The notes beneath the pieces are model-generated. The model was given only the letters and a program-made list of their open reading frames with translations, made no database searches and had not been told where the DNA came from. Below are positions 50 to 47,300 of a stretch of DNA of 64,000 nt, one piece after another (position 1 is the stretch's first letter; each line of letters begins with the position of its first letter). This DNA is from a virus. The stretch is from positions 1 to 64,000 of the IMG/VR virus record IMGVR_UViG_3300032313_001394, one strand, 5' to 3'. The position numbers and the translations under genes were made by a program.

Positions 50-739
50 TTAATTTAAACCAAAGCGAGCTTTTTGTCCGTTGTAGTTTTGTAGTACTTC
101 CGCGTCCGAAAGAACTCTAGTATATACCTGAGCTATTGCATTGTATCCACTAGTAAAATTTGTAGTAGTAAGACTTCCTATAACCCAACCATCTGTAGAT
201 GTTCTTAAATTTGTAGTTGATGTATTTGTAGTAGCTTCTAATATACCATTTACATAATGTTTGATAGATACGCCGGCAGTCCAAACTCCTGTTAAATAGT
301 ACCAGCTATTTAATGCTAATGTTGAAGTTCCTGTAGCACTAAATTGAGTAGCGCCTCCAGAAGTGGTTACAACAGCAGACACCGATAGGCCTGTGGTAAA
401 GATTTTAATATGTAATGACCAACCATTCCCTGATCCATCTCTACCTCTAGCTAATAAAAACTTATCTTCTGAATAATTATCATTTTTAAACCAAGCAGCA
501 AATGTAAAACTATCAGTTGTATTCCCAAAATATGGAGAGGATATATAATCATTTGTACCATCTGTAAAAATAGAACCTCCATTACCGCTGTCGAATGTAG
601 GTCCATTTATTAATGTGCTATTATTATTATTCCCACTTAAATCATTCCACGTAGTCCCACTTCCCGGATATGATTTAGTATTTGCAGCATCTAATGCTAA
701 AACTAATCCGTTTGTTACTATGTTTGGTCCTGTATACAT
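50..739 (-). CDS. LamG-like (concanavalin-fold) adhesin, copy 3
   Basis: Protein of 229 residues, the last of three tandem paralogues. All begin with a GLVLALDAAN segment followed by WNDLSGNN, and end in EVLQNYNxxKxRF. The region in between resembles a LamG/concanavalin A-like beta sandwich, with blocks such as FDGTNDYI and WYYLTGVW. Such domains usually bind carbohydrate and occur on phage tail fibres and capsid decorations. The start is fixed by a TAATG overlap with the stop of the upstream paralogue. A role in surface glycan binding is inferred from fold resemblance and position at the end of the tail-fibre cassette. Confidence 0.75.
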   Translation of the reverse strand: MYTGPNIVTNGLVLALDAANTKSYPGSGTTWNDLSGNNNNSTLINGPTFDSGNGGSIFTDGTNDYISSPYFGNTTDSFTFAAWFKNDNYSEDKFLLARGRDGSGNGWSLHIKIFTTGLSVSAVVTTSGGATQFSATGTSTLALNSWYYLTGVWTAGVSIKHYVNGILEATTNTSTTNLRTSTDGWVIGSLTTTNFTSGYNAIAQVYTRVLSDAEVLQNYNGQKARFGLN

Positions 740-1485
740 TATAGGTTGAAGCGTGATTTTAATGCGTTATAGTTTTGTAATACTTCTTGTGATGAGAGTG
801 CTCTGTTGTATATTTGTGTAGTATATAATATTCCAGCAAAATAATTTTGATAAACGTTATTATAAAATTGAGATCCTAACGCTATAGCGGTAGATGTAGC
901 GGTTATACCGTTCCCTACCCATTTTCCGTTATTTAATCCACTAAAAACTGATAAAGTTTCTTCTACTCCATTAATATATATTTTATAAGAAGAAGGCAAC
1001 ATTACAAAAGCTATATTATAATTTGTGTTTGCGGTTATATTTGTTGATCCTATAATTGTATTATTTACAGAAACACCAGTATCAAGTACTCTAAATTGTA
1101 GTCTAGCATTTCCCGATGATGGTATTCCATCTCCGGAGCTTGTTAATCTAACATAGCAACCATAGGTTGTTGTAGCATTTCCGTAACCCATAATTCCTCT
1201 AACAGCAGTATCAACAGAACTAAAAGACAAATTAAATACACAAGTACTAGAACTTACATTCGCAAAACTAATAGGTAAATTACCGTATTGATTAGTTCCA
1301 TTAAATACAATACCTCCTCCATTAGTGCTGTTGAATGTGGGAGTATTAACTAAAGAACCGCTATAATTATTTCCACTTAAATCATTCCAAGTAGTTCCAC
1401 TTCCAGGATATGATTTAGTATTTGCAGCATCTAATGCTAACACTAATCCATTTGTAACTACATTTGAACCTCCAATAGTTGCCAT
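739..1485 (-). CDS. LamG-like (concanavalin-fold) adhesin, copy 2
   Basis: Protein of 248 residues, paralogous to both neighbours. It has the GLVLALDAANTKSYPGSGTT start, WNDLSGNN, a LamG-like core with an IYINGVEE strand, and the C-terminal QEVLQNYNALKSRFNL. The N-terminal and C-terminal blocks are nearly identical among the three copies while the middle differs strongly, as expected for binding domains that diversify between constant attachment ends. The stop overlaps the next start (TAATG). Confidence 0.75.
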   Translation of the reverse strand: MATIGGSNVVTNGLVLALDAANTKSYPGSGTTWNDLSGNNYSGSLVNTPTFNSTNGGGIVFNGTNQYGNLPISFANVSSSTCVFNLSFSSVDTAVRGIMGYGNATTTYGCYVRLTSSGDGIPSSGNARLQFRVLDTGVSVNNTIIGSTNITANTNYNIAFVMLPSSYKIYINGVEETLSVFSGLNNGKWVGNGITATSTAIALGSQFYNNVYQNYFAGILYTTQIYNRALSSQEVLQNYNALKSRFNL

Positions 1486-1486
1486 A

Positions 1487-1741
1487 TTATATAATTTCTT
1501 CCATCAATGGAGTCCATTCTTCAGTAGAAAGAATTACTAATATTTCTTCATGTGTGTATGGTCCTTCAGTGTTATCTAAAGTAGGCACAAATGAAGGTTG
1601 TTCACCCGACCATTTGATAAATGTTTTTGTACCGTCAACTGATTTTCTAACAGTTTCTTCTGATGTTTCTAGTACTTGATTAAAATCAATTTTAGAAAGT
1701 TCTGTGGTGGGAAATATAATATATTCTCTTGTACTATACAT
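1487..1741 (-). CDS. Small acidic protein between LamG-like genes
   Basis: Protein of 84 residues starting MYSTREYIIF. I do not recognise a named family. It contains a KTFIKWSGEQPSFV stretch and ends in EEWTPLMEEII. It is wedged between two LamG-like paralogues with a few bases on each side, so it is co-transcribed with them. An accessory or chaperone role for the fibres is possible but unproven. There are no membrane segments. Confidence 0.65.
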   Translation of the reverse strand: MYSTREYIIFPTTELSKIDFNQVLETSEETVRKSVDGTKTFIKWSGEQPSFVPTLDNTEGPYTHEEILVILSTEEWTPLMEEII

Positions 1742-1742
1742 G

Positions 1743-2411
1743 TTATGTTAAATTAAAGCGTGATTTTTGTGCGTTATAGTTTTGTAGTACTTCTGTGGAT
1801 GATAATGCTCTGTTATATATTTTATAATTACTACCATTTCCTACAAAGTATCCACCTCCTAACGAACGACCTATTAATATATTAGTTGTTCCTATAAATG
1901 AAGCAATATTTCCAGAACCTTGTAATATTCCATTTTTATAAATTGACGCTGTACCACTAGATTGAGTATAAGTATAGCATATATTATTCCATGCATTTAA
2001 TGTTCCTGTTCCAGCTTGGGCATCTGCTGAATAATGACCTTGATATATTGTACCGTTTCTAAATATTAAATGTAATCCTTGTCTAGTTGCTGTTTGTTCT
2101 GTTCCAAACATACTTCTATCACCAGTAAAATTAGTAGGATATACCCAAGCATCAAATGTATAATTTGCATCATATACTCCTAATTGAGTTGCCGTTTTTC
2201 CAGTATCAACATAATCATTAGTTCCATCAAACACAATACTACCACCATTAGCAGAACTAAATGTAGGTCCATTTACTAACGATCCACTATTATTATTTCC
2301 CGACAAATCATTCCACGTTGTACTACCCGACACATAACTCCTAGGATTAGCAGCATCTAATGCTAGCACTAATCCATCCGTAACTACATTTGGTCCTCTA
2401 AAAAACGCCAT
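1743..2411 (-). CDS. LamG-like (concanavalin-fold) adhesin, copy 1
   Basis: Protein of 222 residues, the first of the three LamG-like paralogues in transcription order. It has GLVLALDAANPRSY, WNDLSGNN, IVFDGTNDYVDTG and SGTASIYKNGILQGSG, typical of concanavalin-like sandwiches, and ends TEVLQNYNAQKSRFNLT. It follows the short fibre gene at 2413 with one base between stop and ATG. Likely a virion-surface glycan-binding protein, from family resemblance and position. Confidence 0.75.
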   Translation of the reverse strand: MAFFRGPNVVTDGLVLALDAANPRSYVSGSTTWNDLSGNNNSGSLVNGPTFSSANGGSIVFDGTNDYVDTGKTATQLGVYDANYTFDAWVYPTNFTGDRSMFGTEQTATRQGLHLIFRNGTIYQGHYSADAQAGTGTLNAWNNICYTYTQSSGTASIYKNGILQGSGNIASFIGTTNILIGRSLGGGYFVGNGSNYKIYNRALSSTEVLQNYNAQKSRFNLT

Positions 2412-19662: not shown

Positions 19663-21339
19663 TTAGTATCCTAATGTTTCTAATCCATGTACCAATACTT
19701 TACCATAGAATTCAGGACGAACCATTTTCTTAGCGTAACGAGTCATCAAACCTTTACGTGGAGTAAATGTTTCTGGATCGTATACTAATGGAGTCATGAT
19801 CAACGGAATGTATGGAGCATATACAGCACCAGTCTCAAGGAATTGAGATCCTTTGTAACCCATCAAGATTACGTTAGAAGTCAAATATGGGTTCTTGTAA
19901 ACTTTGTAACGAGAGTTTAATGAACCTATTTTCTGAATACCGAAGTTGAATTCTGATTTCTCACCATCACCGTCAGTAGCAAATCCTGGAATTGATTCTA
20001 ATACTGTAGCTACAGATGGAGAAACAACTAAGAAATTAGCACCACCACGTAATGTTTTCTGGTGAATAGTGTTAGATACTTTTTGCAATACAGTACCAAT
20101 AGTTTGGAACCATTCGCCTTGAGAGTTGTAGTATCCAGTCAAGTTTCCAGATTGAGAGTTAGCAGATACAGTTGTAAAGCCATTTCCGTTCCAGAATGTG
20201 TTATTAGCAGCTGACCAGTAACCAGTAGTAGCAGCATTTTCGATCAACATACCCAACAATTCTAAATCTACTTCCATTGCGATGTAGTTAGAGATCATTG
20301 AAGTTACTTCTGATTCAGCATCTACTGAGTGGTAAGCGTTCAAATCTTGAGCAAATTCTGGAGTCCATTGAGCTTTCAACTTACGAGTTTTAGCAACGAT
20401 AGCTTCAGATTTCAATTTAATATCAACTGAAGGGATAGCAATTTGAGTTGTTGACTCAGAGTTTGGATAACCAGCACCTGAAGCATCTTCGAAATCACCA
20501 CGAGCAGCAACAGTAGTTACTTTAGGGTAAGTTACGTTGTAAACTTGGTTAGCATTAGCACCAATTGTTGAACCAGAAACAATAAATACAATTGTACCGT
20601 CAGCGTTTAAAGTAGTAAATTCATTGATTATGTTAGCAGCTGATACTGAAGCAGCACCAGAACCTGAAGTGAATTCAATAGCTTTAACAGCGTTATCATC
20701 TAATCCTACTAAAGTACCTGAGGCGAAAGTAATAGTACGAGCTGAAGAACCGATTGAAGCTGAAGCAGCTGAATTGTAATTGAAAGAAGCGATTGAAGTT
20801 GATCCAGAAGTACCAGTAATACCTGCAGAAGCAGTAGTATTAATAGAATATCCGTAACGACCCTCACCATATAAACCACCAGCTACGTCTAAATTCTTAA
20901 CGTTTGGATGATTTTCAGCTTGGTTACCATAGATAGAAGCAGTTCCAAATCCAGCCTTACCTGAAGTTGAACCCATTCCTAAGTTAGAATATTTGAAGTC
21001 TAAGTAAAATACTAGACCAGAAGGTAAAGACATTGGTTGTACGGAAACGAATTCCTTAGCAACGATCTCACCAAACACACGGCGAACTAACGGTAAAGCA
21101 ACACCAGCCCAGTTTTCACCGGCTCCACCTGACATAGATGTAGTACCACCTGTTACGTTAGCTTCTTGAACTAATGAACGAGCTTGATTTTCTAAAATAA
21201 CAGACATGTTATTTTTGTCATACTCGTTAGATAGGTTTTTCAATAAACCTGTTTTTTCCCACTTAGAAACTAAGCGTCCTGCTTCGTTTTGACGATCCGT
21301 CCATGGGTTTGCGCTTTCTAAAAGACTTTGTACGTTCAT
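19663..21339 (-). CDS. Major capsid protein, gp23-like
   Basis: Protein of 558 residues (T4 gp23 has 521). The N-terminus resembles gp23 (LLESANPWTDRQNEAGRLVS). A prohead protease site, LVQE|A, lies at residues 56-60 and is followed by a Gly/Ser-rich stretch and WAGVALPLVRRVFGE. This matches T4, where cleavage removes about 65 residues at LTE|A. Other signatures are FYLDFKYSN near residue 110 and AQWTPEFAQDL. An inserted Ala/Ser/Gly-rich region lies at about 170-260. It is co-transcribed with the scaffold gene upstream and ends at a strong terminator. Confidence 0.95.
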   Translation of the reverse strand: MNVQSLLESANPWTDRQNEAGRLVSKWEKTGLLKNLSNEYDKNNMSVILENQARSLVQEANVTGGTTSMSGGAGENWAGVALPLVRRVFGEIVAKEFVSVQPMSLPSGLVFYLDFKYSNLGMGSTSGKAGFGTASIYGNQAENHPNVKNLDVAGGLYGEGRYGYSINTTASAGITGTSGSTSIASFNYNSAASASIGSSARTITFASGTLVGLDDNAVKAIEFTSGSGAASVSAANIINEFTTLNADGTIVFIVSGSTIGANANQVYNVTYPKVTTVAARGDFEDASGAGYPNSESTTQIAIPSVDIKLKSEAIVAKTRKLKAQWTPEFAQDLNAYHSVDAESEVTSMISNYIAMEVDLELLGMLIENAATTGYWSAANNTFWNGNGFTTVSANSQSGNLTGYYNSQGEWFQTIGTVLQKVSNTIHQKTLRGGANFLVVSPSVATVLESIPGFATDGDGEKSEFNFGIQKIGSLNSRYKVYKNPYLTSNVILMGYKGSQFLETGAVYAPYIPLIMTPLVYDPETFTPRKGLMTRYAKKMVRPEFYGKVLVHGLETLGY

Positions 21340-22604: not shown

Positions 22605-23204
22605 TTATTTAATTCCAGCGTAGTGTTGCCATCTGCTGATTGTCCATTCGTCTAATCCTTTTGGTTTATTTAATTCATCATAGAATGCTCTTGCTTTATT
22701 TTCCGAATCAAATACTTTTTCTTCAGTGCCATACTTAACAATCCAAAAACGACCTTCTGGTTCAATACTAGATAGTTCATTATGACCTAAATTAGCTTCA
22801 TCCATTTCTTCAGCACCGGCTTTATCATCCATTTGAGCATCTGATTCATGATATCCTTTAGCTGCTTGATAAATGTAGCTTTCTGCATTAGTAATATGAT
22901 CTTGAATCCAAGCTGGTAGGTTAATTTCTTTATCTCCCATTTGAGCTTTTAACATCATAGCAGAACGAATAATAGCATCTAATGAATCTTGTGCCATTGC
23001 CACTTCGTAATCTTCGTTTAAACCATCTTCAGCTAATTTTTTAGCTTTATCAGTAGCAATTGCGTACATAGCAGGAGCAGGACCTTTAAAATTCTTCTTC
23101 ATTGCTTTAACAATTTCCTCACGTTTTTTTTCTTCAGCAGCTGTTAATTCTTTTTCAGCAACAATTTTAGCTACGGTTTCTTTTACGATTTGTTCTAAGT
23201 TCAT
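22605..23204 (-). CDS. Prohead core protein with C-terminal RWxxYAG tag
   Basis: Protein of 199 residues. The N-terminus (MNLEQIVKETVAKIVAEKEL) is an amphipathic leader like those on other candidates for prohead packaging. Next is a Lys/Glu-rich helix, and the C-terminal part (WIVKYGTEEKVFDSENKAR) looks like a small alpha/beta fold. The protein ends SRWQHYAGIK, matching the ends of the scaffold and of the winged-helix protein at 32274. It overlaps the protease gene (TAATG). An inner core role is inferred from location, leader and tag; I do not recognise a named family. Confidence 0.65.
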   Translation of the reverse strand: MNLEQIVKETVAKIVAEKELTAAEEKKREEIVKAMKKNFKGPAPAMYAIATDKAKKLAEDGLNEDYEVAMAQDSLDAIIRSAMMLKAQMGDKEINLPAWIQDHITNAESYIYQAAKGYHESDAQMDDKAGAEEMDEANLGHNELSSIEPEGRFWIVKYGTEEKVFDSENKARAFYDELNKPKGLDEWTISRWQHYAGIK

Positions 23205-23833
23205 TATATATTATCAAAATCACAGGTACAGAATCCTGTGCGGTTACAAATAATTTCAGTAATTAAGCTATCTATTTTAGAATAGTCTTTTGATGGTTTA
23301 GAGTATGAAATAGATTCATTTACTACTTCCATATATGCACCTGGTGTAGATGGAGTTGAAACGAAATCCCAACACATTAATTCAAAATCGTCTTGTACCT
23401 CAATTGTTTCACCAATTTGACGTACAGAACCCATACCACGAGATGAGATACCTACGGTGATATTGTTGTTAAATAATGCTTTTAATATATTACCTGATGG
23501 AGTATTTAGTATTTCAATTTTACCATATAAATCTTTACCTTGCCAACTTAAAGCAACAATATTATGTGATACATTCTTTAAATTAATAACAGGAGAATCG
23601 GGATGATCTAATTCACCTAATGCACGACGTTCTTTAACTGGTCCTTCTAAGTATTTATCAGCTTCACGTCTTAATACTTCGTAAGGATAGACACGTCCAT
23701 TACCATTTTTAGTTTCAGCCTTTTGTATCAAACCTTCAACAAACATTTTACCGTTAGGATTTTGCATCGACTCCTTCAATGATTGAGGAGTGGCGGTAAA
23801 TAATGCTGTTTCTATTAATAATTGCTTATCCAT
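23204..23833 (-). CDS. Prohead core protease, gp21-like
   Basis: Protein of 209 residues (T4 gp21 has 212). It belongs to the S77/herpes-assemblin-like protease group. RVYPYEVL near 47-54, GELDHP with the likely catalytic His at 77, and VGISSRG with the likely catalytic Ser at 130 or 131 are in the order and spacing of the family. The enzyme matures capsid and core proteins at [LI]xE sites. It sits between two core genes with TAATG overlaps on both sides, which would fix stoichiometry. Confidence 0.9.
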   Translation of the reverse strand: MDKQLLIETALFTATPQSLKESMQNPNGKMFVEGLIQKAETKNGNGRVYPYEVLRREADKYLEGPVKERRALGELDHPDSPVINLKNVSHNIVALSWQGKDLYGKIEILNTPSGNILKALFNNNITVGISSRGMGSVRQIGETIEVQDDFELMCWDFVSTPSTPGAYMEVVNESISYSKPSKDYSKIDSLITEIICNRTGFCTCDFDNI

Positions 23834-41349: not shown

Positions 41350-41619
41350 TTAAAATTTATAAATTTTTAGTCGTAACTTACCTGTTCCTTTAATTAAACG
41401 GTGGTATTTGTGTTTTGGTATAAATATTGGAGGAGTAAACGTTGTAGGGAGTTCATTTTCTAATTGAATTTTCCAATCAGTTTCACCCTGAAGATATAAT
41501 GTTCTATGTTCATTATCACGATGCCAAAGGAGTTCGATGGGATCTATATTCTCATCGAACTCACGAATAGTATATTCTTCAGTTATTTCTAAATCAGTAT
41601 ATGGTTTACCAGAATCCAC
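41350..41619 (-). CDS. Small cupin-like conserved phage protein
   Basis: Protein of 89 residues. IDPIELLWHRDNEHRTLYLQ, then GETDWKIQLENELPTTF and IFIPKHKYHRLIKGTGKLRL are the conserved blocks of a small protein widespread in T4-like phages. His residues in the WHRD and YHRLIKG positions suggest a metal-binding cupin-like fold. Function unknown. It overlaps the upstream mosaic gene by 14 bases. Confidence 0.65.
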   Translation of the reverse strand: MDSGKPYTDLEITEEYTIREFDENIDPIELLWHRDNEHRTLYLQGETDWKIQLENELPTTFTPPIFIPKHKYHRLIKGTGKLRLKIYKF

Positions 41620-43522
41620 TAAATGTTGTTTTAAAACCTAATAATTTAGCATATCTTGGTAAACGACATGACCAATAAGATGCTTTAGTTCTATCTTTTT
41701 TATTCTTACAATCATGACGAGCAGCAAAGGCACGACGTGCTTGGGGATTATTTAATTTAGCTCTTAATCCAGTTGTATCACCAAATGATACTTTTTTAAC
41801 TCCACCACCTGGTTTACGAACATAAACATAGAATTTTTTAGATCCACCACGTTTTGGTTTTCCAATTGGAGGTGTTTTCTTTTTATCGGCTTCAGATACT
41901 AATTCTTCTTCAATTAAAATATAATCAAACGGAAGTTCCATTCCTTTATATTTAAATGTTTCTCCAATATTTGATTCTAATATCTCAACATCATCTTCAG
42001 TTACTGAAAGTAATCCTTTGTTATATAATTCACGGGCTTCATTAAATAAAGCAAAATATTGTTCAGATAAAGGACGATATATATTATGAATTAATTGTTT
42101 GCCTTCAGCAATATGATATTTTAATCCTTCAGATAATATAGGTATATCTTGTCCTTCTTTTAATATTAATTTAGGACCGTTACAACCACAATCTTCATTT
42201 AAATTAGCTCCAATATCGTTTACATCTTGATATGCAAATTTATTCATCGGTTCGATAGTGCCTAAAATTACTTGTGGATTTATACCTTTTGCTCTAGCAA
42301 CCATTAAACGAGTATTACCACCTACTAAATAGTATTTATTCGGAGAATATTGGAGAATCAACGCAGGAGGTGTTTTTTCAGCGGCTAATATGCTTTGAAT
42401 ATCTTTACCGTAATGGCGCGCTAATTCTATCGCTTCTTCTTCAGAATTTATATCGTATGAGTCGGTATTTTCTAAACGACTCCACATTTCATCTGTTAAA
42501 GTAACTTCTTTACCATTAACAAATGAATTATATACTACATCATAAGGTAAACCTAATTCTCCAGCTGTACGTTCGATTTCCTCATTTTCAGCTTTTATAA
42601 TTGGTTCCCATCCTAATGGATTAATATCTTCTCTAAAACGTACTTTTGCTTTATCTGTATTTGGAACTACACGATCGCCTTTACGATCAGCAGCTGCTTT
42701 TTTACGAGCAGTAGCAGCACGTTCTTCTTTAGATAATGAATTTGCTTTAGCACGAGGCAAACAACGAGTTGTTGCTTGTCCTTTTTTCATTGTACCACAA
42801 GGCCCAGTTATGTTACCTGCTGTATCAATACGAACCCAATCTTCTTTTCTAAACCAATCACGTAGTGATTCATCTAAATTAATTAATTTATCTGAGTTTA
42901 ATATTTTAACTTTTATATTTTTATTAGCTGCTAAACTAGCATATAGTCTAGTTCTTCCACCAACTACATATAGAGTTCCATTTATATCAATTAATACAGG
43001 AGGTTCATAATTTCCTGTTGTTACTTGATCATATAAACTACCAATATCATATCCTCTTTGTCTATTACTATCATTTGAATCTCTTTTAGTCATTAAATCT
43101 ATATATCCTTGTCTTGGATTCTGAGATTTACTGATTTTGATTATATCTGTTATAAGAGATTCTTCACCAGATTTATTATTAAAATTTTTAAGTTTTGTTA
43201 CTTGAGATGGAGAAATATTAGTTGCAGGTGTTTTTTCAATAATAGGTATTAATTTATTAACAGATTCTTCATCATATTTAAATCCAGCATTTTTTACTAT
43301 TTTAGATATATTTAGATCTTTTTGACCTACTAATTCCCATGCTTCATCCTCACTTCCTTCTTCCATCAATCCTTTACATACCTTAACAGCACGACCAGAT
43401 AAATAAGCTGATGGTACTTCACCAGCAGCTATACGTCTATTATAATAAGCTTTACCCTTAGGACAAAGCTTTTTTTCCATTATAACATTCTCAATTATAG
43501 ATTTTATTTTATTTAAATCCAT
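41606..43522 (-). CDS. Mosaic protein with two ParB-like modules and protease sites
   Basis: Protein of 638 residues. It starts with the leader MDLNKIKSIIENVIMEK, then a Cys/basic block (about 20-51). ParB-like module 1 (about 165-208) has VVGGRTRLYA, and module 2 (about 385-422) has LVGGNTRLMVARA. A DUF6321-like block lies between them (about 219-285, with WVRIDTAGNITGPCGTMKKG). ILSE|G (462-466), HIAE|G (470-474) and LVSE|A (541-545) fit the prohead protease. The C-terminus (from about 562) matches, from memory, the DUF5872 block (VYVRKPGGGVKKVSFGD, ending RLPRYAKLLGF). The protein may be processed in the prohead into several pieces. Confidence 0.65.
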   Translation of the reverse strand: MDLNKIKSIIENVIMEKKLCPKGKAYYNRRIAAGEVPSAYLSGRAVKVCKGLMEEGSEDEAWELVGQKDLNISKIVKNAGFKYDEESVNKLIPIIEKTPATNISPSQVTKLKNFNNKSGEESLITDIIKISKSQNPRQGYIDLMTKRDSNDSNRQRGYDIGSLYDQVTTGNYEPPVLIDINGTLYVVGGRTRLYASLAANKNIKVKILNSDKLINLDESLRDWFRKEDWVRIDTAGNITGPCGTMKKGQATTRCLPRAKANSLSKEERAATARKKAAADRKGDRVVPNTDKAKVRFREDINPLGWEPIIKAENEEIERTAGELGLPYDVVYNSFVNGKEVTLTDEMWSRLENTDSYDINSEEEAIELARHYGKDIQSILAAEKTPPALILQYSPNKYYLVGGNTRLMVARAKGINPQVILGTIEPMNKFAYQDVNDIGANLNEDCGCNGPKLILKEGQDIPILSEGLKYHIAEGKQLIHNIYRPLSEQYFALFNEARELYNKGLLSVTEDDVEILESNIGETFKYKGMELPFDYILIEEELVSEADKKKTPPIGKPKRGGSKKFYVYVRKPGGGVKKVSFGDTTGLRAKLNNPQARRAFAARHDCKNKKDRTKASYWSCRLPRYAKLLGFKTTFSGFW

Positions 43523-43766
43523 TTTCTTCTTGTTTTGGCAAAAACCAGTTAGAACACCATTTTGAAGGATCTTTTATCTGATTTCCATCATTATCAACTA
43601 ATTCAGCAGTACCCATATGTTCTTGATAATTCGTACTTGAACACATATGTTTGTCGTCTTGTTTGTAGTAGAATTTACATACGTGACATCCAAATCCTAC
43701 AGGCGAGTACATATAAGGAGGAGATACCTCAGATACTTCACTTAATATATTGATTAATTTAATCAT
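43509..43766 (-). CDS. Small Cys-rich protein with capsid-targeting-like leader
   Basis: Protein of 85 residues. The leader MIKLINILSE|V is very close to those of the genes at 44561 and 45892. The body has four cysteines (GCHVCKFYY, then HMCSSTN and KWCSNWF), giving a CxxC plus two distant Cys pattern, suggestive of a zinc or iron-sulfur site. The start overlaps the upstream stop (TAATG). Function unknown; the packaged small metal protein idea is inference. Confidence 0.6.
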   Translation of the reverse strand: MIKLINILSEVSEVSPPYMYSPVGFGCHVCKFYYKQDDKHMCSSTNYQEHMGTAELVDNDGNQIKDPSKWCSNWFLPKQEENGFK

Positions 43767-44560: not shown

Positions 44561-45892
44561 TTATAACCCTAGTTTTTGTAATTGTTTTATTGTTGATTCT
44601 GTAGATGTATGACGGATACCAATTCCACCAGCATCTATCCATTGTTGGATATTATCTTTTCTATCATCAATCAATATTGCATTTGGTTCTGCTAGATCTT
44701 TTTTATCTTTTGCTTGTTTAAATACAATGGATGTACCTGGTATATTATTATCTACCCATTCTTGTTTACCTATTTCAGATGATTTTTCACGTGATGGAGC
44801 AGTTAATAATTTAGGATTATATTGTTTAATATAATTCCATAATTGTTGTCCATCAGACATCCAATTTAAATCAGCCCAAAATTTAGATCCTGCTTTAGTA
44901 ATTGCAGACCAAAAATCATTTTTATCATATGTTGAATCAACACCAGGTGTTTGCTTGCCTGTTAAATCATTATATCCACGTTCAAAATCAACTAATACAC
45001 CATCCATATCACAATATACTTTATATTGTTGTTCGCCTTCATTTAATTTAGAAGATTGATTATTAAATGATTTTACTTTAGATATAAGTTCAGGTTCAGA
45101 TAAAACAGAATCTTTAATTTTTTTATCTATAGTAATAAATTCACGTTCTAATTGAGATACTAATTGTTTAAATAGTTCTCTTGATTTTTCTGTTGCTTTA
45201 TCTTTTTTAGCTTGTTCTTCAGGTGATAAAGGCGAATCTTGTGTTTTACGGAAAGTAGATACAAATTGTTCTGGATTCTGAGATGTTAATTCTTCTAACC
45301 ATTCATATAATTTTCCTTGTTGAACTGCTTGATTAAATTCTTCTATTTCTTTTTTGTACTCATCATCTGGTGCTTGATATAATACAAAATTATCACCTAA
45401 TTTATTTTTATAAGCATCAATATTACCGTATACATTATTCCATGTTGATATAACACCTATTTTAGGTACTTTACGCTCACGTTTAAAATTTCTTAAAAAT
45501 GATACAATTGGGTGAGCATACACCATAATCATTAATGTATCATAATTAGAAGCAGCATTTAATAATCCTGGTGTTTCTTTACGTTTATATGTTCCTCCAA
45601 GTAATTTAGCTGCATTAGATGCTGTTGTGTCCCAAATAAATGATTTACCTGATAAAAGAGTATTAGGTACATCAACATCATCTACTTGAATAGAAGCTGC
45701 TGATAAATTATTAAACATTGGACTTGCTTTATCTTCAATGTATTTATCAGGATTAATTATTTCAAAACCAGGTGTTAATCCTTTAATTTTATCTATTAAA
45801 GTAGATTTACCAACTCCAGCACCCCCAGCTAAAATTATCATTTTATTTTGAGGTGAAATAATTTCTTGTAGTATATCAAATAATTTTATCAT
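44561..45892 (-). CDS. P-loop kinase fused to HAD phosphatase, with leader
   Basis: Protein of 443 residues. It starts with the leader MIKLFDILQE, then a kinase domain with Walker A GGAGVGKST (23-31) and INPDKYIED. A helical linker follows (about 180-290), with SSKLNE|GEQ just before the second domain, and then a HAD domain with CDMDGVLVDF (Asp295 and Asp297 as nucleophile and acid/base). LLTAPSREKS and ILIDDRKDN carry the later HAD residues. The order kinase-phosphatase is that of T4 polynucleotide kinase, but the sequences look like zeta-toxin-like kinase and 5'-deoxynucleotidase-like HAD. DNA/RNA end repair or nucleotide salvage are alternatives. Confidence 0.75.
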   Translation of the reverse strand: MIKLFDILQEIISPQNKMIILAGGAGVGKSTLIDKIKGLTPGFEIINPDKYIEDKASPMFNNLSAASIQVDDVDVPNTLLSGKSFIWDTTASNAAKLLGGTYKRKETPGLLNAASNYDTLMIMVYAHPIVSFLRNFKRERKVPKIGVISTWNNVYGNIDAYKNKLGDNFVLYQAPDDEYKKEIEEFNQAVQQGKLYEWLEELTSQNPEQFVSTFRKTQDSPLSPEEQAKKDKATEKSRELFKQLVSQLEREFITIDKKIKDSVLSEPELISKVKSFNNQSSKLNEGEQQYKVYCDMDGVLVDFERGYNDLTGKQTPGVDSTYDKNDFWSAITKAGSKFWADLNWMSDGQQLWNYIKQYNPKLLTAPSREKSSEIGKQEWVDNNIPGTSIVFKQAKDKKDLAEPNAILIDDRKDNIQQWIDAGGIGIRHTSTESTIKQLQKLGL

Positions 45893-46425
45893 TATTTTTT
45901 AAATGAACGCTTAATGTTTGATTTTGATGAAGTATTTGGTTTTCTTAGATAAACATGGTTATTAGAATCTTTTGTATAACTCCAATCAGATAAATTTCTT
46001 TCAACGTATGCTTTATATAATTTTTCTCTACCTTGATCCGATGGACCTGATTTTACAGGTTCGTATACTATCTCTACTACTTCAGGATGTTGTGAAACAT
46101 AATCTTTTAGTATTTTAGTGACAGTAGCCATTATTCTATATTGTTCTCCTCTATTAGTATCTAAAGTAGTATACTCTTCATTTCCAACTTTATTACCAAA
46201 TACTACCCCCAAATAATATTCATTTTTTGATTTGGATTGAGGTACATCATATTTATCCATTAAACCAGTATAAAGTTCAACAATATATGTATTATTCCCT
46301 ATTTCAAATTCATAGTTTATAGTCTTTTCATCTTTAGTTGAATTTAGTGATTCACCAGTTTTATTATATGGTACACTTAATGTAGCATCACCAATTTCAG
46401 ACAGTATATCAAATAATTTTATCAT
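45892..46425 (-). CDS. Leader-bearing protein, unknown
   Basis: Protein of 177 residues starting MIKLFDILSEIGDATLSVPY, where the first ten residues equal the leader of the next gene but for one residue. The body is alpha/beta (INYEFEIGNNTYIVELYTG, then YYLGVVFGNK and TVTKILKDYVSQHPEVVEIV). It ends in a basic tail (SSKSNIKRSFKK). TAATG and ATGA overlaps join it to both neighbours. No motif is recognised. Confidence 0.6.
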   Translation of the reverse strand: MIKLFDILSEIGDATLSVPYNKTGESLNSTKDEKTINYEFEIGNNTYIVELYTGLMDKYDVPQSKSKNEYYLGVVFGNKVGNEEYTTLDTNRGEQYRIMATVTKILKDYVSQHPEVVEIVYEPVKSGPSDQGREKLYKAYVERNLSDWSYTKDSNNHVYLRKPNTSSKSNIKRSFKK

Positions 46426-47300
46426 CTTACTATAAACATTTCAGGTCGCATTTGAGCGAAATTTCTCATCATAATAGCGGCGGCAGCATTAGCTTCATTT
46501 TCATGAGCATGTCCTGTTTTACCGGATTCTGGTGTTAATCTATTTTGTATATCTTGTTTATAATGAACTAACTCATGTGCTAATGTTCTAAAAACATCAG
46601 CTTGATGACGATTAGCTACACTTAATTCAATACTTTTATTGTTTGGATCGTATCCACCAAATGAACGTCTTGATTCTGCATTTGTAGGATCATATGACAT
46701 TTTTAATGGAGGTAATGATTTTAATTTTAAATATTCTCTGCAGTATCCAACAAATTCTTTTAATAATGGGAATTGATCTTCATATATTGGATGCTCATTT
46801 AATGAGTTTTTATTTTTTTCATACGTTCTAGTAAATGCATCAAAAAATTCTCTTGTTGAAACCCCATCAGGTAAAAATTTAGCTACTTGTTTTATATTAC
46901 GAGCTTGAATAGCATCTCTAAAGTCAGTTGCTGATATATTTTCAAAATTACCAGCGTCAAATATCTCAACTTTGGGATTGTCAGCTAATGAAGCAAAACG
47001 TGAACTTTCTTCTTTACCAAATGCAACTACAAAATCTTGATCAGGATTATTTTTAATCGATGATAATGTATAATATACAGGAGAGCCTTCAGATGATATA
47101 ACTTTAACTTTAGGACCTAATAAATTAGTATATAACGCCCAAATATCTAATGATTGATCTGCTGAAACTCCACCACGTTCTTTTGAAGAAACAGCAACAA
47201 CCACCTCAGAAATATCATCTCTATCAATTAATAGTTTAACTACTTGGAAATGACCTTTATGAGGTGGTTTAAACGCGCCTGGGTAAATTGCTATTTTCAT
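46422..47300 (-). CDS. Nucleotidyltransferase fused to HExxH metallopeptidase-like domain
   Basis: Protein of 292 residues. The N-terminal part is a cytidylyltransferase-like nucleotidyltransferase: YPGAFKPPHKGH with the HxGH site at 14-17, and ISATDFRDAI (122-131) in place of the ISSTxxR motif, as in NMN or phosphopantetheine adenylyltransferases. The C-terminal part (about 180-292) has TLAHELVHYKQD (His242, Glu243, His246) and a likely third ligand in HENEANAAA (Glu267 or Glu269), a gluzincin-like site. I know of no such standard fusion. The head has no leader. A class 1 element lies 26 bases upstream. Confidence 0.8.
   Translation of the reverse strand: MKIAIYPGAFKPPHKGHFQVVKLLIDRDDISEVVVAVSSKERGGVSADQSLDIWALYTNLLGPKVKVISSEGSPVYYTLSSIKNNPDQDFVVAFGKEESSRFASLADNPKVEIFDAGNFENISATDFRDAIQARNIKQVAKFLPDGVSTREFFDAFTRTYEKNKNSLNEHPIYEDQFPLLKEFVGYCREYLKLKSLPPLKMSYDPTNAESRRSFGGYDPNNKSIELSVANRHQADVFRTLAHELVHYKQDIQNRLTPESGKTGHAHENEANAAAAIMMRNFAQMRPEMFIVR

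Follow-up and report, generated by a model that had tools for sequence, protein, structure and literature searches.

The closest described systems to the gene studied here are the packaged and processed head proteins of large tailed phages. The T4 internal proteins IPII and IPIII both start MKTYQEFIAE↓A (here and below, the arrow marks a cut or predicted cut), a decamer with hydrophobic residues at positions 4, 7 and 8 and E at position 10. The excerpted text of PMC9026906 describes a capsid-targeting sequence (CTS) for the T4 internal proteins, gives targeting and processing positions that agree with those of the decamer, and has the protease gp21 cut after L/I-X-E. For the giant phages phiKZ and SPN3US, excerpts of PMC9026906 and PMC10052503 describe inner-body or ejection proteins that are packaged and then trimmed by a prohead protease after x-x-E, sometimes at several propeptide sites. 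In this report, we found a gene that probably encodes a head-cargo polyprotein, targeted by its leader and cut by the phage's own S77 protease at module starts into separate DNA-associated proteins.

The window, that is, the whole stretch of DNA analysed, comprises positions 1 to 64,000 of a virus contig of 139,243 bp (IMG/VR record IMGVR_UViG_3300032313_001394). We call this record T4-like because of its head genes, which encode a major capsid protein (a match to phrog_138 at 3.4e-71), a portal, a large terminase and a T4-gp21-type prohead protease. The reading frame at 41606-43522 described in the initial annotation is intact; it encodes 638 aa on the minus strand and is the single match within its record. 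The leader proposed there is likewise present, as aa 1-16 ending at IME16↓K. The module names used herein (CPKG, SrxA, PRAKA, SrxB, YHI and C5872) were coined from motifs (Table 1). The net charge is about +6 for CPKG, +9 for PRAKA and +21 for C5872, calculated with cut points that differ by 1-2 residues; YHI and SrxB are acidic. The labels DUF6321 and DUF5872, given earlier to two blocks of the protein, were not upheld, as neither Pfam model was listed at E up to 1. No Pfam model exceeded its cut-off for the whole protein or the individual modules, the only related hint being DUF5754, below cut-off, on a distant relative of C5872, and Rfam gave no match. The basic modules do match PHROGs of unknown function, namely 27331 (50 positions), 23735 (81) and 7595 (96). 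A literature search on DUF6321/DUF5872 and on phage prohead-protease polyproteins returned nothing useful.

Table 1. Features of the locus, with their coordinates in the window and the evidence for each assignment
Feature	Coordinates	Strand	Evidence
Putative cargo polyprotein ORF, 638 aa	41606..43522	(-)	Module HMMs
Leader, aa 1-16, MDLNKIKSIIENVIME↓K	43475..43522	(-)	KLCPKG preceded by [IVL]xE in almost all of 33 relatives
CPKG module, aa 17-55, basic	43358..43474	(-)	phrog_27331, 1.3e-5; leaderless 56-aa P-SCSP2 gene
SrxA, aa 56-218, VVGGRTRL, end LDE218↓S	42869..43357	(-)	Motif and weak SrxB similarity only
PRAKA module, aa 219-298, basic	42629..42868	(-)	phrog_23735, 6.3e-15; start site in 97% of 34 relatives; 78-aa leaderless C75C1 gene
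SrxB, aa 299-430, ParB/Srx-like, LVGGNTRL	42233..42628	(-)	PDB matches of model m4d4baa069a7a lie almost entirely within the ParB/Srx superfamily
Cys-rich linker, aa 431-465, NLNEDCGCNGPKLILKEGQDIPILSE↓	42128..42232	(-)	Equals N-terminal propeptide of standalone YHI proteins
YHI module, aa 466-544, acidic	41891..42127	(-)	[LIVMF]xE at start in 97% of 40 relatives; confident part of model
C5872 module, aa 545-638, strongly basic	41609..41890	(-)	phrog_7595, 4.4e-12; start site in 78/80 relatives; leaderless genes in non-T4 phages
T4-gp21-type prohead protease, presumed cutter	23204..23833	(-)	Peptidase_S77, 1.8e-27; GELDHP and SSRG conserved with T4 gp21
Major capsid protein	19663..21339	(-)	SLVQE↓A aligned to T4 gp23 SFLTE↓A
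Neighbour gene with targeting decamer MIKLINILSE	43509..43766	(-)	
Neighbour gene with decamer MIKLFDILQE; P-loop and 5'-3' deoxyribonucleotidase-like	44561..45892	(-)	
Neighbour gene with decamer MIKLFDILSE; DUF6934-like, below cut-off	45892..46425	(-)	

Several other genes of the record (G000) drew our attention. By eye, minus-strand ORFs at 106409-108332 resemble GroEL and GroES from their N-termini, and those at 134505-137429 resemble queE/queC/queD, suggesting 7-deazaguanine DNA modification. Three adjacent minus-strand ORFs at window positions 50-2411 have a common repeated start, TNGLVLALDAANTKSYPGSGTTWNDLSGNN or close to it, and are probably duplicated genes.

The 638-aa protein contains 19 [LIVMF]xE motifs, at about 3% of its positions, so the motif alone means little. 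Counts were thus anchored on module starts in non-redundant relatives. The motif lies directly upstream of PRAKA in 97% of 34 and of YHI in 97% of 40; for CPKG, where KLC/KKLC permits two positions, one or the other carries it in nearly all of 33. Of 80 C5872 sequences, 78 have it at the start; P3 is L (48), I (19), V (7) or M (4), P1' is mostly A, and this site is retained behind unrelated inserted stretches. Control windows of 16 residues elsewhere in the same proteins contain the motif in 39% of cases. In the columns flanking the start sites its frequency is mostly <25%; higher values occur only at the other permitted CPKG position and, within the YHI propeptide, at a second site that is conserved 10-11 residues further upstream. 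The junction from PRAKA to SrxB is ambiguous: the window has FRE↓D there, and relatives, most of which have no clean site, usually show RLE↓S or RLE↓A. The YHI module of Flavobacterium phage immuto starts GLPTLQYH and lacks the site.

In the window, the sites at module starts are IME16↓K, LDE218↓S, LSE465↓G and VSE544↓A. The three sites quoted in the initial annotation are all present; ILSE465↓G and LVSE544↓A fall at conserved module starts, and HIAE473↓G was rejected as a cut, because no more than 7 of 27 relatives retain its E, which lies inside the first YHI helix of the model. The leader site and LDE218↓S had been missed, as had weaker sites at 55 and 298. In the full-length model (mean pLDDT 57.8; no significant match in the PDB), sites 218 and 544 lie in low-confidence linkers and E465 is at the edge or start of a confident helix.

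The initial annotation had asked whether the modules occur separately in relatives, and indeed they do. Module HMMs were run over 270 loci, and the relatives, gathered from viral contigs, amounted to about 200 related ORFs in which modules are shuffled, standalone or fused. Among unique ORFs, YHI-C5872 is represented 107 times, CPKG-PRAKA 37 times, C5872 alone 29 times and PRAKA alone 15 times; five-module architectures exist in two different orders, and further architectures are also present. Within this survey, only the window joins SrxA and SrxB in one chain. Because the modules occur separately and shuffle, the window gene appears to have arisen by fusion of genes that also exist on their own. 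In standalone genes, the leader ends at the very residue that forms the fusion junction (MIKLKELLPISE↓GLQYHI, MITQERLQEIITE↓SLRDWF and MIKLTDILNEILTE↓KKLCPKG), and the linker NLNEDCGCNGPKLILKEGQDIPILSE of the window resembles the starts of standalone YHI proteins, such as MLNEDCNCNGPKVMLNEGKNDILLSE. Elsewhere, a small minus-strand ORF (G000, 119957-120238) carries VTFDVPLFIRLLEFAREDA; in the relatives L232 and L236, this module is joined to CPKG on its upstream side.

Phages that do not belong to the T4 group carry C5872 as a small gene with neither leader nor site. It begins MAKYKGR, MAKYKNK or MAKYQGR in HTVC026P, 111P, 112P, 202P and Kolga and MATYKGK in CRP-901; in these six phages, the module starts at the predicted P1' Ala. 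In CRP-2, CRP-738, HTVC106P and ctfjg026, C5872 also has no leader or site, with a less exact alignment of the start. Similarly, PRAKA is a leaderless 78-aa gene in C75C1, and CPKG is a 56-aa gene starting MAKLCARGK in P-SCSP2, where it is located between the scaffold and capsid genes. These small leaderless genes are tied to the window modules through phrog_23735, phrog_27331 and phrog_7595. For all three modules, the phages concerned lack S77, and the leaderless gene starts at the predicted cut or a few residues away from it. The C-terminus of standalone PRAKA proteins reads KAKVKLNK or similar, with no E, whereas the four CPKG-PRAKA-C5872 fusions have SLNE, KINE or SLKE at the junction, or QLNE a few residues further in (L267). 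In so small a set, this difference is only suggestive of a glutamate acquired with fusion.

The leaders were compared with the T4 internal-protein decamer. The decamer pattern is found in 51 of the 206 module ORFs, compared to about 0.6 expected from an internal rate of 0.0028, although the module ORFs are related and the 51 matches thus cannot be counted as independent. Of the 192 genes of the phage genome that includes the window, 4 have it (0.5 expected; p = 0.002), and three of the four adjoin the polyprotein gene. Standalone relatives fit the decamer; the polyprotein's own 16-aa leader is longer and does not fit strictly. A looser test, [LIVMF]xE in the first 25 residues, showed no genome-wide enrichment.

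The presence of the presumed cutter follows that of the sites. S77 was found in 23 of the 25 genomes with leader- or site-bearing copies and in 0 of the 13 others (12 with leaderless copies, plus CRP-6), a co-occurrence that is confounded by lineage, since S77 marks T4-like phages and the relatives are not independent. T4, the positive control, was detected in the same search, and the two site-bearing contigs with no detected S77 are possibly incomplete. In Roseobacter phage CRP-6 (gp55; L108:2516-3205), C5872 is fused to a Peptidase_S78_2 head protease (7.2e-18); this gene is three genes from the capsid gene, and PLEE↓D precedes the module. The fusion is a possible direct link of C5872 to the head. 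In one relative (G021; L305:1086-2804), an in-frame LAGLIDADG intein splits the S77 gene directly after GELDHP. Taken together, junction conservation, standalone leader-module genes, leaderless starts and S77 co-occurrence bear out, with the corrections given above, the initial view of a mosaic with protease-type sites between its modules. These sequence comparisons lend strong support to a modular protein in which predicted prohead-protease sites mark the module starts.

Of the two ParB-like modules proposed initially, one is supported by its fold and the other by its motif, and both GGxTRL motifs are present (VVGGRTRL in SrxA and LVGGNTRL in SrxB). Modelled alone, SrxB has a pLDDT of 76.6, and its top PDB matches (PadC, sulfiredoxin, ParB-CDP, KorB, SbnI and Noc) belong almost all to the ParB/Srx superfamily. 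Since single matches reach E of about 0.07 and TM of about 0.3, SrxB is likely to be a member of this superfamily, if a remote one. SrxA, a low-confidence region of the full-length model, can be called ParB-like only by its motif and a weak similarity to SrxB; its sole other copy is in L009/L104. Pfam ParB_N (PF02195) does not match SrxB; the only match is in L138 (1-1023), where a ParB_N domain (7.6e-10) occupies the position of SrxB, ahead of a zincin of the type found after SrxB in other loci. The GGxTR arginine is changed in several relatives, which makes enzymatic activity of SrxB uncertain. A search for further Srx relatives in phages and bacterial genomes found none. TALE-like repeats in SrxA (Hax3, E 7.5e-8) were dismissed as an artefact of eight weak repeat matches summed (best single i-E 33), and SrxB matches to cyanovirin, IF-3 and DUF5597 were set aside as weak and unrelated to the fold result. 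Nearby, the minus-strand window gene 46422-47300 combines a weakly nucleotidyltransferase-like N-terminus with the zincin motif HELVH; in its homologues in L009, L246 and L024, SrxB is placed between or before the corresponding parts.

In one rival account, the leader alone is removed, the remainder being packaged as one multidomain protein in which the internal motifs are relics of fused standalone genes. The internal sites do equal standalone leader ends and hence were possibly inherited, and the excerpted PMC9026906 has the T4 internal proteins trimmed at the N-terminus. However, relics should decay, and the persistence of the C5872 site in 78 of 80 relatives, even behind unrelated insertions, renders this account unlikely. 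We consider it very improbable that the [LIVM]xE motifs are structural, serving as a helix cap or first module turn with no relation to proteolysis in a cytoplasmic protein. That E465 starts a confident helix would suit such a role, but the same motif precedes four unrelated modules, and leaderless C5872 homologues in phages without S77 lack it despite having the same module.

Another possibility is a polyvalent protein sensu Iyer et al. The chain would then be packaged either intact or after some processing, and a zincin metallopeptidase would do the cutting in place of the prohead protease. In favour of this, relatives carry SrxB joined to a zincin (AHELIH/AHELVH), the gene at window positions 46422-47300 ends in a zincin-like part, and P1 DdrB couples a ParB domain to a metallopeptidase at its C-terminus (PMC5512222). 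Yet no zincin motif was recognised in the 638-aa protein, and its conserved junctions fit gp21 specificity and track the presence of S77; we thus regard zincin processing as quite improbable. Our preferred reading is that of a polyprotein split by the prohead protease: with several small, interchangeable modules placed behind a predicted head-targeting leader and a cutting signal before four of them, a single chain probably enters the head and is there divided into several proteins.

By analogy to the T4 system, we infer packaging, cleavage, and the fate and activity of the fragments. Late in infection, the leader, acting like the T4 capsid-targeting sequence, would draw the polyprotein into the prohead core, where S77, once activated, would cut it along with the scaffold and capsid protein. 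Cuts are predicted after [LIVM]-x-E at E16↓K, E218↓S, E465↓G and E544↓A, and further cuts may occur at E55↓G, E298↓D, E443↓D and E456↓G. The leader would be lost, and the small, basic CPKG, PRAKA and C5872 modules would stay with the incoming packaged DNA; the acidic YHI module would also be released. One or two ParB/Srx-like modules would be carried along and may be ejected with the genome, after which they might bind nucleotides, perhaps CTP as the initial annotation suggested, or act as nuclease effectors.

A wider proposal, to which we give an even chance, is that the prohead protease serves aquatic T4-like phages as a cargo splitter. These phages would recombine a shared pool of basic and effector modules, many with a site in front, such that one leader loads a fixed-ratio cocktail that includes a nucleotide-binding ParB/Srx effector delivered with the genome. 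If true, a leader plus [LI]xE at module starts would mark head cargo and its cut points in uncultured T4-like phages, and PHROGs 7595, 23735 and 27331, of unknown function, would gain a likely location. It would also reveal how a phage can load several proteins through a single targeting signal, and leader-module fusions would be candidate cargo tags.

In the literature searched, which lay mostly outside the subscription journals, we found no description of such a cargo polyprotein. Like the T4 internal proteins (IPI-III and Alt), the protein has a hydrophobic N-terminal leader ending in xxE, a gp21-type protease is present, and standalone relatives and three neighbouring genes show the position pattern of MKTYQEFIAE↓A. 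It differs from them in having several modules per chain, four of which are preceded by a site, and a 16-aa leader that is not a strict decamer. With the polyvalent proteins (PMC5512222), it shares a multidomain mosaic of several unrelated domains, including ParB/Srx-like ones, carried near virion genes. Processing was proposed there to be by fused zincins and here by the prohead protease at module starts; the modules here are mostly small basic proteins, and the fused zincin-like peptidase, frequent but not obligatory in polyvalent proteins, is absent from the 638 aa and present in neighbours and relatives. Unlike this chain, the phiKZ and SPN3US proteins, in the excerpted accounts, lose fragments described as propeptides, and those excerpts contain no series of separately recurring modules. 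SrxB resembles the ParB/sulfiredoxin superfamily in the matches of its model and departs from it in its remoteness, its want of a Pfam match and the arginine lost in several relatives. What would be new relative to these known systems is the placement of predicted protease sites before several interchangeable modules.
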